Below are positions 58,232 through 64,000 of a stretch of 64,000 nt of DNA, in pieces. The position numbers and the translations under genes are program-made. This DNA comes from Acidimicrobiaceae bacterium (lineage in GTDB: Bacteria; Actinomycetota; Acidimicrobiia; Acidimicrobiales; RAAP-2), in NCBI GenBank assembly GCA_027314705.1, contig DAHVAJ010000016.1:1-64000 (forward strand), read 5' to 3'. How positions within the stretch are numbered: the first letter of the stretch is position 1; every line of letters begins with the position of its first letter. A model generated the notes under the pieces. The model saw nothing but the letters and a program-made list of their open reading frames with translations, was not told where the DNA came from and did not search any database.

Positions 58232-59719
58232 GTGGTTCCCACGGCACCCGCAGCGCAGGACACGGCACGGGGGGGGACAAGTACCGGCCCGGGGGGGCAG
58301 CAGCACTTCGACATCGTGGTCGTCGGCGGTGGGCCGGGCGGGTATGCCACCGCCCTGTACGCCTCGGCGGCCGGGTTGTCGGTGGCCGTGGTCGAGCTCG
58401 ACAAGGTGGGGGGCACCTGCCTCCACCGTGGCTGCGTGCCGGCCAAGGAGTTCCTGGAGACGGCGGCTGTCGCCCGCACGGTGCGGGGTTCGGCCGAGTT
58501 CGGCGTGTCCGCCGGGCCCGATCCGACCGATCCGACCGTCGACTTCTCGGTGAGCCAGAAGCGCAAGCAGCAGGTCGTGGACCAGCTCTTTGCCGGGCTC
58601 AGCGGGCTGTTGAAGGGCCGGGGGGTCACGGTGTTCGCCGGGTCCGGCACCTTCCTCGGAGACCACCGGGTCCGGATCGCCGGCAACGACGGGGCCACGG
58701 CCGAGATCACCGGGACGGACGTCGTGCTGGCGTCGGGGTCGGTGCCCCGCACGGTCCCCGGGTTCGACGTCGACGGCACCGTGGTCCTGACCTCCGACGA
58801 GTTCCTGGCCCTCGACCGGTTGCCGACCTCGGCCGCCGTGGTCGGTGGGGGGGCCATCGGGTGCGAATTCGCCTCGCTCCTCGCCGATCTGGGGACCTCG
58901 GTCACGGTGCTCGAGGCCCTGCCGTCGATCCTCAACGAGTGCGACGAGGACATCGTCCGGGTCGTGGGGCGTTCCTTCCGTAAGCGGGGGATCGACGTGA
59001 AGTCCGGAGTGGCCCTCCACGGCCATTCGCCCGACCCGTCCGGTCGGGGCACCGTGGTCTCCTACGGCGACGGCGCGCGGCTGACGGTGGAGGCAGTGGT
59101 GGTCTCGGTGGGCCGCCGGCCCCGCACCGAAGGGCTCCTGGCCGAGGGAACCGGCGTGGTCGTCGACGAGCGCGGCTACGTGGTGACGGATCGGTTCCTG
59201 CGCACCGCGGCGGAGGGGGTGTGGGCCGTGGGGGACCTCGTGGCCGCGACCCCGCAGCTGGCCCACGTGGCCTTCGCCGAGGCCATCGTGGTGGTCAAGT
59301 CCATCCTCGGTGAGCCGGTCGCCCCGGTCGACTACACCCGGGTGCCCTGGGCCATCTACTGCCACCCGGAGGTGGCCTTCACCGGGTTGACCGAAGCTGC
59401 GGCCCGGGCGGCAGGTCTCGACGTGGTCGTGAAGAAGGACCCGTTCGGGGGCAACAGCCGGGCCCGCATCCTCGGCGAGACCGACGGCATGGTGAAGGTC
59501 GTGGCCGAACGCCGCCCGGACGGTTCGACCGGCCGGCTCCTCGGCGTCCACATGGTCGGGCCGTGGGTCACCGAGCAGCTCGGCGCCGGCTACCTGGCCG
59601 TCAATTGGGAGGCCACCGCCGACGAAGTGGCACAGTTCGTCCAGCCGCACCCTTCGCTGTCCGAGACGTTCGGCGAGACGGTGCTGGCCCTGACCGGAAG
59701 GGGACTGCACGTTGCCTGA
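58232..59719 (+). CDS. lpd: Dihydrolipoamide dehydrogenase (E3)
   Basis: 495 residues. The FAD motif is VVVGGGPGGYATALYASAAG. The redox disulfide is in GGTCLHRGCVPAKEFLE, the NAD motif is VVGGGAIGCEFASLLADLG, and the second FAD Asp is in GVWAVGDLV. The C-terminal dimer domain holds the catalytic His region in QFVQPHPSLSETFGE. It reoxidises dihydrolipoyl groups of the 2-oxoacid dehydrogenase complexes. The N-terminus has 25 extra residues; GTG 58232 is the only start in frame before the FAD motif, though GGAGG is too close to it. Its end overlaps the E2 gene by eight bases. Confidence 0.95.
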   Translation: MVPTAPAAQDTARGGTSTGPGGQQHFDIVVVGGGPGGYATALYASAAGLSVAVVELDKVGGTCLHRGCVPAKEFLETAAVARTVRGSAEFGVSAGPDPTDPTVDFSVSQKRKQQVVDQLFAGLSGLLKGRGVTVFAGSGTFLGDHRVRIAGNDGATAEITGTDVVLASGSVPRTVPGFDVDGTVVLTSDEFLALDRLPTSAAVVGGGAIGCEFASLLADLGTSVTVLEALPSILNECDEDIVRVVGRSFRKRGIDVKSGVALHGHSPDPSGRGTVVSYGDGARLTVEAVVVSVGRRPRTEGLLAEGTGVVVDERGYVVTDRFLRTAAEGVWAVGDLVAATPQLAHVAFAEAIVVVKSILGEPVAPVDYTRVPWAIYCHPEVAFTGLTEAAARAAGLDVVVKKDPFGGNSRARILGETDGMVKVVAERRPDGSTGRLLGVHMVGPWVTEQLGAGYLAVNWEATADEVAQFVQPHPSLSETFGETVLALTGRGLHVA

Positions 59720-61148
59720 CGTGACCATGCCGCAGCTCGGGGAGACGGTCACGGAGGGGACCGTGACCCGATGGTTCAAGGCCGTGGGTGACCACGTCGA
59801 CCGCGACGAGCTGCTGTTCGAGGTCTCCACCGACAAGGTCGACTCCGAGGTCCCCTCCCCGGCGGAGGGGGTCCTCACCGCCATCCTCGTGGAGGAGGGG
59901 GACACCGTCGACGTCGGGGTCACCCTGGCCGTCATCGACGGCCCCGGCACGCCGTCCGGCAACGGGGCGGCACCGGCGGCCGAGGCCCCGCCCCCCGTCC
60001 CACCGCCGGCCCCCACCCCACCGCCGGCCGCCGCCGCTCCGCCCACCGCGCCGTCGGGCACCACCCTCCCCGACGAGCCGACGACCGCCCCGGCACCGGC
60101 CGCCCCGGCGCGGCCGCCGGGCGCGGCGACCCCCGGGATCGTGCTCTCGCCGGTCGTCCGAAGGCTCCTCACGGACTACGACATCGACCCGGCCGCCATC
60201 CGGGGCACCGGTCTGGGGGGGCGGATCACCCGCAGCGACGTCGAGGCCGTGATCGCCCGCGGGGGTGGCAACCCGTCGCCTGTCCCGAGCATCGCCGGCG
60301 GCGGTGCGCCGCCCGAGCCCGCGTCCGCGGCCCGCCCGGAACCTCCCGAGCCGGCGCGAGCCCAGGCCGGAGCGGCTCCTGTGGCCCCAACGGCGGAGAC
60401 CCCGGCGCCGGCCGGCGGGGCGGCCGGTGCCGGCGGCCGCGACCAGGTCGTGCCCTTCACCAATATCCGGCGTCGCACGGCCGAGCACATGGTGCGGTCG
60501 AAGGCGACCTCGGCCCACACCCTCATGGTGAAGGAGATCGACTACGAGGGCGTCGAGCGGGTGCGACGTGCCTACGGGGCCCGCTTCCGCGAGGAGGAGG
60601 GCTTCAGCCTCACCTACCTCCCCTTTGCCGCCCGCGCCACCGTCGAGGCCCTGGCCGAGTTCCCGCACCTCAACTCCTCGGTCGGCGACGACGCCCTCGT
60701 GGTGCACCACGACATCAACCTCGGCATCGCCGTCGATCTCGACAACGAGGGCCTCATCGTGCCGGTCGTGCACCGGGCCGAGGAGCTCAATCTGCGGGGG
60801 ATGGCGCGACGCATCCACGACGTGGCCGACCGGGCCCGCTCCAAGCGGCTGAGCCTCGACGACATCAGCGGAGGGACCTTCTCGATCACCAACGCCGGCC
60901 CGTTCGGGACGCTCATCACCGGGGCCATCATCAACCAGCCCCAGGTGGCGATCCTCTCGACGGACGGTGTGTCCCGGCGGCCCGTGGTGGTGGAGGGTCC
61001 GGACGGCAGCGAGTCCATCGGGATCCACTCGGTCGGCCTGGTGGCCATGAACTTCGACCACCGCGCCGTCGACGGCGCCTACGTGGGACGCTTCCTCGCC
61101 CGCATGTCGGACATCCTGAACGACCGCGACTGGGCCGGCGAGCTCTAG
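59712..61148 (+). CDS. Dihydrolipoamide acyltransferase (E2) with one lipoyl domain
   Basis: 478 residues. The lipoyl domain (1-80) carries the modified Lys in LFEVSTDKVDSEVPSP. A long Ala/Pro hinge follows, then the E1/E3-binding domain (IVLSPVVRRLLTDYDIDPAA), a second Ala/Pro hinge, and the catalytic core with HTLMVKEIDYEGVERVR and the catalytic NFDHRAVDGAYVGRFL. Only one lipoyl domain is present. In actinobacteria one E2 can serve pyruvate and 2-oxoglutarate dehydrogenases; the nearby aceE supports the pyruvate role. The start is TTG 59712, with AAGGGGA eight bases upstream; GTG 59721 and ATG 59727 are alternatives. Confidence 0.92.
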   Translation: MPDVTMPQLGETVTEGTVTRWFKAVGDHVDRDELLFEVSTDKVDSEVPSPAEGVLTAILVEEGDTVDVGVTLAVIDGPGTPSGNGAAPAAEAPPPVPPPAPTPPPAAAAPPTAPSGTTLPDEPTTAPAPAAPARPPGAATPGIVLSPVVRRLLTDYDIDPAAIRGTGLGGRITRSDVEAVIARGGGNPSPVPSIAGGGAPPEPASAARPEPPEPARAQAGAAPVAPTAETPAPAGGAAGAGGRDQVVPFTNIRRRTAEHMVRSKATSAHTLMVKEIDYEGVERVRRAYGARFREEEGFSLTYLPFAARATVEALAEFPHLNSSVGDDALVVHHDINLGIAVDLDNEGLIVPVVHRAEELNLRGMARRIHDVADRARSKRLSLDDISGGTFSITNAGPFGTLITGAIINQPQVAILSTDGVSRRPVVVEGPDGSESIGIHSVGLVAMNFDHRAVDGAYVGRFLARMSDILNDRDWAGEL

Positions 61149-61196
61149 TCGGGTGGAGCCGCCCGTCGCCCCTGTGAGCTGGCGCCGGAGCGCCCG

Positions 61197-62879
61197 GTGA
61201 GGGTCCGCTGGTTGGGGCGCGTCCCCTACGTGGAAGCATGGGACCTCCAGCGGGCGCTCGCCTCCCGGTCGACCGAGGACTACCTCCTCCTGCTGGAGCA
61301 CCCGGCCGTCGTGACGCTCGGCGTCCACGGTGACCCGGCCCATGTCTTGGTCGACCCCGCGACGGTCGGCGCTGACCTCGTACGGGTCGACCGGGGTGGC
61401 GACGTCACGTACCACGGCCCCGGCCAGCTGGTCGGCTACCCGGTCCGGACCGTCGGGGACGGCCCCCATCGGGGTCCGTCCCACGTGCACCAGGTCGAGC
61501 AGGTGGTCATCGACGCCCTCGTGATGCTGGGGTTGCCGGCGGACACCGTCGGTCGGCTGGACGGGTTCCCGGGCATCTGGGTCACCACCGGGCGGCCCCA
61601 CGACCCCGGTCCGGACGGACCGCGCAAGATCGCCGCCGTCGGCGTGCGTACGGCCCGTGGCCGAACCACCCACGGGTTCGCCCTGAACATCGACCCCGAT
61701 CTGGCCATGTTCTCCCACATCGTCCCGTGCGGGATCCCCGACCGGCCGGTGACGTCGCTCCGAGCCGAGGGCGTCGACGCCACCATGGCCGAGGCCGTCG
61801 ACGCGGTCACCGCCGCCGCGGCCGTCGTCTGGGGCCCGGTGACGGACGTCCAGCGGGTGGTCGACGGGTCCTGGCCCGCGCCCTCACCGGGCGGCTCCCG
61901 CGACGGGTCGCCGGCGGACGGCTCCAGGCCAGTGGCCGTGGCCCTGCGGCGGGGAAACGCCCTCGAACGGCGTCTCGAGCGGGCCGGAGTGGCTCCCGGT
62001 TCGGGCCTCGCCCTCTCGACCCGCAAGCCGCCGTGGCTCCGGGTGGAGGCGGCGATGGCCGACGGGTACCTGGGGCTCCGGCACGACCTGCGGGCCCTCG
62101 AGCTGGTGACCGTCTGCGAGGAGGCCGGCTGTCCCAACATCTACGAATGCTGGGCGGACGGCACGGCGACGTTCATGATCAACGGGGACCGGTGCACCCG
62201 TGCCTGCGCGTTCTGCCAGGTGGACACCCGTCACCCCCTGCCCCTCGACCCGGACGAGCCCACCCGGGTGGCCGAGGCCGTCGTGCGCATGGGGCTCGGC
62301 CACGCCGTGGTCACGTGCGTCGCCCGGGACGACCTCCCCGACGGTGGGGCCGGCGCATTCGCCGCCACCATCGACGCCGTTCGGCGGAGGAGCCCGTCCA
62401 CGTCGGTCGAGGTGCTCATCTCCGACCTGAAGGGCGATGCCGGCAGCCTCGCCGTGGTGACCGATGCCCGCCCCGACGTGCTCAACCACAACATCGAGAC
62501 GGTGGCCCGCCTCCAGCGGGCCGTGCGGCCGTCCGCCGGCTACGCCCGCAGCCTCACCGTGCTGGCCCGAGCGGCCGACGCCGGCCTCACGACGAAGTCG
62601 GGGGTCATCCTGGGCATGGGAGAGCGCGAGGACGAGGTGCTGGCCACGTTGGCCGATCTGGCCGCTGTGGGGGTGGCCGTCGTCACCCTCGGGCAGTACC
62701 TCCGCCCCAGCGCCCGTCACCTGCCGGTGGCCCGCTGGTGGACACCCGAGGAGTTCGACCGGCTGCGCGCCGGGGCGCTCGCGCTCGGCTTTGCCCACGT
62801 CCAGGCGTCGCCGCTCACCCGGTCCAGCTACCACGCCCGCGAGGCCGCCGGTGCCGCTGCGCCGCTCCGGGCCCGGTGA
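61197..62879 (+). CDS. lipB-lipA: Fused LipB-LipA: octanoyltransferase plus lipoyl synthase
   Basis: One uninterrupted 560-residue frame holds two complete enzymes. Residues 1 to about 225 are LipB: LLLLEHPAVVTLG, DRGGDVTYHGPGQLVGYPV, the catalytic Lys144 in KIAAVGVRTARG and the acyl-Cys178 in SHIVPCGI. A Gly/Ser/Pro-rich linker (about 226-247) leads to LipA: RKPPWLRV, auxiliary cluster Cys307/312/318 in VCEEAGCPNIYECW, radical-SAM Cys333/337/340 in CTRACAFC, and the C-terminal cluster ligand in TRSSYHA (542-547). All catalytic residues of both are present. Octanoyl groups could pass to E2 lipoyl domains and be sulfurated by the same polypeptide. It follows the E2 gene by 48 bases. GTG 61197 has CGGAG upstream. 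Confidence 0.93.
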   Translation: MRVRWLGRVPYVEAWDLQRALASRSTEDYLLLLEHPAVVTLGVHGDPAHVLVDPATVGADLVRVDRGGDVTYHGPGQLVGYPVRTVGDGPHRGPSHVHQVEQVVIDALVMLGLPADTVGRLDGFPGIWVTTGRPHDPGPDGPRKIAAVGVRTARGRTTHGFALNIDPDLAMFSHIVPCGIPDRPVTSLRAEGVDATMAEAVDAVTAAAAVVWGPVTDVQRVVDGSWPAPSPGGSRDGSPADGSRPVAVALRRGNALERRLERAGVAPGSGLALSTRKPPWLRVEAAMADGYLGLRHDLRALELVTVCEEAGCPNIYECWADGTATFMINGDRCTRACAFCQVDTRHPLPLDPDEPTRVAEAVVRMGLGHAVVTCVARDDLPDGGAGAFAATIDAVRRRSPSTSVEVLISDLKGDAGSLAVVTDARPDVLNHNIETVARLQRAVRPSAGYARSLTVLARAADAGLTTKSGVILGMGEREDEVLATLADLAAVGVAVVTLGQYLRPSARHLPVARWWTPEEFDRLRAGALALGFAHVQASPLTRSSYHAREAAGAAAPLRAR

Positions 62880-62886
62880 GACCTCG

Positions 62887-64000
62887 GTGAACGCCCTCCC
62901 TCCGGCGGCCGTGGCCGTGCGTCACGACCGGATGGCCCGGGTGCGCCTCCGCATGGAGGAACTCGGGGTCGACGCCCTCCTCCTCTCGCACGGGGCCGAC
63001 CTTCCCTGGCTGACCGGCTACCGGGCCATGCCGCTCGAACGGCTCACCCTGCTCGTGCTGCCGGCCGAGGGGGAACCGGCGCTGGTGGTGCCCGGTCTCG
63101 AGGCCCCCCGGGTACCCGACGCCGGCGACCTCGTCGCCGTGGTGCCGTGGGGCGACGCGGAGGACCCCCTCGACTTGGTCGTCGCCCGGCTGGCCGCGGC
63201 CGGGACCCCCCGTCTGGCCCTCTCCGACCGGGCGTGGGCGGCGACCGTCCTCGCCCTCCAGCGCCGCCTCCCCGACGCCGAATGGCTCGAAGCCTCCCGT
63301 GTGACCGCACCCCTCCGGGCGGTGAAGGACGCCACCGAGGTCGCAGCCCTGCGCGCTGCTGCGGCGGCCGCCGACCGCGTCGCCGCCTCCCTCCAGGCCG
63401 GCGCGGTCCCCCTGGTGGGCCGTTCCGAGGCCGACGTGTCCGCCGACCTCGCCAGGCTGCTCCTCGCCGAGGGCCATCACGAGGTCAACTTCGCCATCGT
63501 GGCCAGCGGTCCCAACGCCGCCAGCCCCCATCACGAGCCGGGCCGGCGGAGGATCGGTCGCGGCGAAACGGTCGTGTGCGACTTCGGCGGGGCGCTCTCG
63601 CTCGAGGGGGAGGTCGGTTACTGCTCGGACATCACCCGAACGGTGGTGACGGGTGAGCCCACGACCGAGGTGCGGGAGTGCTACGAGGTCCTGGGCGCGG
63701 CGCAGAAGGCCGCGGTGGAGGCCGCCCGGGCCGGCGTACCGGCGGCGTCCGTCGACCGGGCGGCCCGTCGGGTCATCGAGGCGGCCGGCCTCGGGTCGCG
63801 TTTCATCCACCGGACCGGGCACGGCATCGGGATCGAGGAGCACGAGGACCCCTACGTGGTCGCCGGCAACGAGGAGGTGCTGCGACCGGGGCACGCCTTC
63901 TCCGTGGAGCCCGGGATCTACGTCCCGGCCCGGTTCGGCATGCGGCTCGAGGACATCGTGGTCGTCGGTGCCGACGGCTCACCCGACGCGCTCAACACCG
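62887..64000 (+). CDS. M24 metallopeptidase (Xaa-Pro peptidase), 3' end cut by window edge
   Basis: 371 residues are visible with no stop. The N-terminal creatinase-like domain (ARVRLRMEELGVDALLL, LPWLTGYRAMPLERLTLLV) precedes the pita-bread catalytic domain. Metal ligands are visible in order: Asp in VVCDFGGAL, Asp in YCSDITRTV, His in FIHRTGHGIGIEEHEDP, Glu in FSVEPGIYVP and Glu in GMRLEDIVVV. It removes N-terminal residues before proline or splits Xaa-Pro dipeptides in the cytosol. GTG 62887 lies seven bases after lipB-lipA, so it is probably cotranscribed. Confidence 0.9.
   Translation, partial: MNALPPAAVAVRHDRMARVRLRMEELGVDALLLSHGADLPWLTGYRAMPLERLTLLVLPAEGEPALVVPGLEAPRVPDAGDLVAVVPWGDAEDPLDLVVARLAAAGTPRLALSDRAWAATVLALQRRLPDAEWLEASRVTAPLRAVKDATEVAALRAAAAAADRVAASLQAGAVPLVGRSEADVSADLARLLLAEGHHEVNFAIVASGPNAASPHHEPGRRRIGRGETVVCDFGGALSLEGEVGYCSDITRTVVTGEPTTEVRECYEVLGAAQKAAVEAARAGVPAASVDRAARRVIEAAGLGSRFIHRTGHGIGIEEHEDPYVVAGNEEVLRPGHAFSVEPGIYVPARFGMRLEDIVVVGADGSPDALNT

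Follow-up and report, generated by a model that had tools for sequence, protein, structure and literature searches.

A LipB-LipA fusion protein for lipoyl assembly is the rule across the class Acidimicrobiia

When two enzymes of one cofactor pathway are found in a single open frame, it has to be asked whether the joined gene is genuine, what the joined protein would do that separate enzymes do not, and how the arrangement arose. The octanoyltransferase LipB and the lipoyl synthase LipA are textbook enzymes, and the two reactions discussed here are those established for their families. In the 64,000-nucleotide stretch of an Acidimicrobiaceae contig that was analyzed here (the window), both are encoded by one gene, lipBA, the product of which we consider very probably to be a bifunctional lipoyl-assembly enzyme with a single origin.

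The frame begins with a GTG codon at 61197 and ends with a TGA at 62877-62879, with no internal stop codons, and the original prediction was right about its coordinates and about the presence of LipB and LipA in one 560-residue polypeptide (Table 1). The same is true of the claim that the catalytic and cluster residues are all intact: H73, K144 and C178 of LipB, the six cysteines of LipA, and S544 of the RSSY motif are present.

Table 1. Features of the lipBA locus, with positions counted along the window.
Feature	Position	Strand	Basis
lpd, dihydrolipoyl dehydrogenase, first gene of the conserved run	58232..59719	+	TIGR01350, 439.8 vs 408.8
E2, 2-oxo acid dehydrogenase acyltransferase: one lipoyl domain, E3-binding domain, catalytic domain	59712..61148	+	profile matches
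GGAG, possible ribosome-binding site, 6 bases 5' of the GTG	61187..61190	+	sequence read; inference
lipBA, fused LipB-LipA, 560 aa	61197..62879	+	single open frame; Pfam, NCBIfam, invariant residues
LipB octanoyltransferase domain, residues 1-212	61197..61832	+	PF21948 9.7e-38; PRK14345, TIGR00214; 1w66, 2qhs
LipB H73 in RGGDVTYHGPGQ	61413..61415	+	invariant, 125/125 fused loci
LipB catalytic Lys K144 (RKIAAVGVR)	61626..61628	+	invariant, 125/125 fused loci
LipB acyl-thioester Cys C178 (VPCGI)	61728..61730	+	invariant, 125/125 fused loci
Linker, residues 213-276, ~64 residues; 225-251 predicted disordered	61833..62024	+	alignment of relatives; AlphaFold2
Conserved linker segment, residues 255-265 (ALERRLERAGV), predicted helix 255-262, runs into RKPPWLR	61959..61991	+	alignment; AlphaFold2
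LipA lipoyl synthase domain, residues 277-550	62025..62846	+	NCBIfam; M. tuberculosis LipA 5exi/5exk, TMt 0.92-0.93
Auxiliary [4Fe-4S] cluster motif CEEAGCPNIYEC, C307/C312/C318, CX4CX5C, sulfur donor cluster	62115..62150	+	invariant Cys; PMC12246082
Radical SAM cluster motif CTRACAFC, C333/C337/C340, CX3CX2C	62193..62216	+	invariant Cys
RSSY motif, S544 = auxiliary-cluster serine ligand	62820..62831	+	sequence; PMC12246082
M24 aminopeptidase/prolidase, 3' of lipBA, runs past the window end	62887..63999	+	profile match

Each half is recognized by the models of its own family. The Pfam LplA-B_cat domain covers residues 11-207 of the fused protein, and NCBIfam places LipB at residues 2-207, where the curated cut-offs are passed (PRK14345, 167.5 bits against 155; TIGR00214, 120.1 against 83.55). 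Both the Lys/Cys dyad and the RGG..T.HGPGQ motif that mark membership in the LipB family are present, and these, along with the fold, are held in common with LipB of Mycobacterium tuberculosis (PDB 1w66) and other octanoyl-ACP:protein N-octanoyltransferases, although the mycobacterial enzyme is a stand-alone protein whereas the LipB described here carries LipA at its C-terminus. For the second half, Pfam finds LIAS_N and Radical_SAM, and NCBIfam assigns residues 275-550 to LipA (TIGR00510, 339 against a cut-off of 310.25; PRK05481, 383 against 203; the curated cut-off of PRK12928 is passed as well). All 125 fused loci keep the six LipA cysteines, and both RSS serines are found in all 123 alignment rows that cover them; in LipA, the auxiliary cluster is the sulfur donor and the RSSY serine is a ligand of that cluster (PMC12246082). 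The fold (TMt up to 0.93), the two cysteine triads and the RSSY serine are shared with M. tuberculosis LipA (5exi, 5exk) and human LIAS (8ugo), both of which, unlike the fused LipA, are stand-alone proteins. Unfused actinomycete LipA carries an N-terminal extension, APEGRKLLR..., in place of which the fused protein has the linker motif RRL..AGV....GL.

Judging by family membership, both steps of de novo lipoyl assembly should be performed by the fused protein. The LipB half would take octanoyl from octanoyl-ACP through a cysteine thioester and pass it to the lysine of a lipoyl domain (of E2 or the H protein), and the radical-SAM LipA half would then place sulfur at positions C6 and C8 by means of its auxiliary iron-sulfur cluster. 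As far as profile searches can tell, lipBA encodes the only LipA of the cell, being the only PF16881 match in the genome as well as its only strong LipB-type match. The lipoylation substrates in the genome are the H protein, of which there is one, and E2; there are five biotin/lipoyl domain matches, some of which may be biotin carriers. The genome also encodes a second, weak LplA/LipB-superfamily protein of 337 aa (L143:1402-2418 on the minus strand; G000:C1:47573-48076; PF21948, 47 bits), which adjoins mraZ/rsmH-like genes, contains RRGSGGGA and GRKVVG motifs and scores far under the LplAB model; this LplA-family gene could contribute to ligation, a possibility that was counted against the bifunctional reading.

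What joining adds to these two activities depends on how the halves are held together. The original prediction described a short low-complexity linker, which is only partly right: only residues 225-251 look disordered, and the remainder of the roughly 64 residues contains short conserved stretches and a predicted helix. Across the class, a segment of the form R-R-L-x-x-A-G-V...G-L-x-[IL]..RKP.W[LM]R recurs, and the tail behind LipB reads [DE]RV..W in many fused members, while the length of the linker in relatives, counted from position 208 to the RKP.W motif, ranges from 27 to 139 residues (median 59), a variation as compatible with a loose tether as with docking. AlphaFold2, run with 63 fused sequences, gave a model with a mean pLDDT of 90.4 and a pTM of 0.91, with pLDDT below 50 at residues 225-251 and the last residues and nowhere else. 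In a chain of two domains, such a high pTM would imply that their relative placement is predicted with confidence, and the model thus suggests that LipB and LipA dock in the fused protein; it fits docked domains and is silent on transfer between their sites. As a docking control, pairs from unfused Actinomycetota, read through the stop codon, yielded a pTM of 0.50, a value that has little bearing on docking, having been obtained from only 11 close sequences and with poorly folded domains.

Under the bifunctional reading, the halves would dock in a fixed arrangement, and the tether would set a 1:1 ratio of LipB to LipA and help the octanoylated domain to rebind at LipA before drifting off; we regard the chances that docking and rebinding belong to the explanation as evenly balanced. 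Direct hand-over between the two sites is plausible, and in its strongest form, a docked two-site machine whose class-specific linker helix positions LipB and LipA for the octanoylated lipoyl domain to swing straight from the first site to the second, it is a tentative proposal and, in our estimate, rather unlikely. The most serious competitor, to which we assign somewhat less than an even chance, is that the joining is just that: the fusion was fixed by loss of a stop codon and kept for equal amounts of the two enzymes, or in the absence of counter-selection, with the halves working independently. The variable length and partial disorder of the linker are in keeping with such independence, as are the ancestral adjacency and shared frame of the two genes, which make the loss of a stop easy; moreover, mean-field couplings (Neff 95) gave no coevolution signal between the halves over background, with inter-domain pairs fewer than random, a result that carries little information. 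Against independent halves stand the docking suggested by the pTM of 0.91, the conservation of parts of the linker across the class, and the lack of a clear fission at the linker in several hundred genomes, from which it seems that separation is disfavored.

It is also conceivable, if improbable, that two proteins result after all, LipA being freed by an internal start or by a protease acting on the linker. Most members have in-frame ATG or GTG codons within the linker, just as such codons are found throughout these genes, and the disordered stretch 225-251 could be cut. However, in-frame starts with ribosome-binding sites are found in the linker of 57 of the 125 fused loci compared with 41-65 of 125 in other stretches, and a stop followed by a restart at the linker is seen in no locus of the fused clade. 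An internal start in the linker was accordingly rejected, there being no enrichment over the domain interiors.

The weakest alternative, a sequencing or assembly error that joined two frames, is practically negligible because the frame recurs, intact each time, in 125 loci from separate public assemblies and surveyed genomes. The loci tested came from a scan of GTDB contigs and from whole-genome surveys; of the 140 that have both halves, 125 hold them in one frame and 15 do not, and a few of the 125 may represent the same organism given that the contig and genome collections overlap. Fourteen of these 15 are not members of the fused clade (they include Dietzia, Rhodococcus and Nocardioides, as well as L077), and in the last, L114, the stop lies within the LipB part rather than at the linker. 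Neither of the outcomes named beforehand as refuting the fusion, an error joining two frames and close relatives that always have two separate proteins, holds: the search for full-length homologues found 125 single-frame loci, with close relatives fused, not split. The fused set spans an isolate (L046, Acidiferrimicrobium), single-cell genomes and single-contig chromosomes, and the gene is present in 187 of the 198 genomes of the order and in 275 of the 296 genomes of the class (202 of the 210 of good quality). In both surveys, the halves share a frame wherever both could be placed, bar a few broken copies. The joined form is the rule across the class, not an oddity. Genomes that appeared to be split, with two or three matches, mostly have two matches in one frame with a divergent linker between them, and the remaining cases are contig ends or broken copies (G055, G021, G128 and G144, for example); a single "internal" stop in G113, G024, G518 and G483 reflects a match that overshoots the true C-terminal stop, and all four are fused.

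Beyond the class, the expectation that LipB and LipA are otherwise separate proteins was borne out in the sampled Actinomycetota: in a phylum-wide draw of 396 genomes, the matches listed from outside Acidimicrobiia are LipA alone or lipB-lipA pairs with at least one stop in the aligned span. The matches listed from plasmid records are of three kinds: separate genes, unannotated places that fall into two pieces, and LipA by itself. Several individual records deserve mention. One member of the order (G067) carries two full-length fused copies (C85:9925-11553 and C3:2085-3707), with identities of 63% and 62% to the window protein, a pair that may reflect a duplication or a mixed bin. A genome of the same family that is 96% complete (G168) has no match to the fused protein, though its relatives have one, which points to an assembly gap or a loss of de novo lipoyl assembly. 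Four loci with records titled Bifidobacterium breve or Acidobacteria (L044, L045, L055 and L019) contain clear fused genes of the Acidimicrobiia type, and the titles look wrong.

The history of the fusion appears to be simple. Fused rows form one group with a support of 100 in the LipA tree and in the LipB tree alike, and a fully supported clade recovered from both halves makes one ancient fusion the simplest history; with the long-branch row L077 kept in, an initial LipA tree called for two changes rather than a single one. LipA and LipB distances within the fused set are correlated (Mantel r = 0.68, with none of 999 shuffles as high). The most economical scenario would be a single fusion at or before the ancestor of the class Acidimicrobiia, most simply once the stop codon separating neighboring, same-frame lipB and lipA was lost, with the fused gene then passed down vertically. 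In unfused Actinomycetota, lipB and lipA are often adjacent and in the same frame with a stop between them, a shared-frame frequency that is biased upward since the search favored loci matching in one piece. With the genes so arranged, the loss of one stop codon would suffice, and this is probably how the fusion arose.

The surroundings of lipBA are conserved as well. E2 overlaps lpd and ends 48 bases 5' of lipBA, such that the genes are probably transcribed together; neither a consensus promoter nor a consensus terminator was seen in this stretch, which is a weak test in a high-GC genome. Sufficient flanking sequence is available for 41 fused loci: all 41 have lpd upstream on the same strand, 31 have E2 upstream, and 19 have an M24 peptidase downstream. 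The position of lipBA behind lpd and E2 is thus real and conserved, whereas the idea that the fusion itself brought about a special coupling of cofactor synthesis to its client complexes is weakened: E2 also precedes lipB-lipA in 10 of the 12 unfused actinomycetotal loci with enough flank, so the order is older than the fusion and the neighborhood was inherited. The unfused neighborhood matches the fused loci in gene order, direction and often frame, and differs in specifying two proteins, with a stop between them, rather than one. In seven fused loci (L022, L030, L034, L035, L038, L042 and L051), lpd directly precedes the fused gene by 45-62 bases and E2 was not found in the flank, the E2 gene having been lost from the run or moved. 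The E2 of the window (59712-61148), in which the lipoyl domain is followed by a long Pro/Ala-rich stretch, is nearest to actinobacterial SucB, yet stays under the model cut-off (370.7 against 423.45), and which complex it serves is uncertain.

UniProt automatic annotation may already label proteins of this type as multifunctional fusions. The NCBIfam family NF053790, LplA_LipA_fuse (bifunctional lipoate-protein ligase/lipoyl synthase), likewise joins an LplA/LipB-superfamily domain to LipA and shows that annotators already know this kind of fusion; its first domain, however, is an ATP-using ligase, unlike the LipB of the fused protein, and the window protein falls outside the family, with 342.2 bits against a cut-off of 800, matched over the LipA part only. 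We found no description of a LipB-LipA fusion in the openly accessible literature, although an earlier mention is possible; a literature search on LipB-LipA hand-over gave none either, and the fusion is not mentioned in the accessible part of the main survey of lipoate assembly (PMC10332631).

For the members of Acidimicrobiia, the lipBA fusion is a molecular marker of the class, and any annotation that names one half of the gene misses the other. Whether a protein-bound intermediate is handed over from LipB to LipA is hard to test with separate enzymes, and a fusion that occurs naturally throughout a class, and whose arrangement is predicted with confidence, offers a single protein for structural, kinetic and linker-cutting tests of this question. 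If docked hand-over is true, the fused protein would represent a naturally occurring lipoyl-assembly machine in which LipB and LipA are covalently joined, kept by a whole bacterial class.
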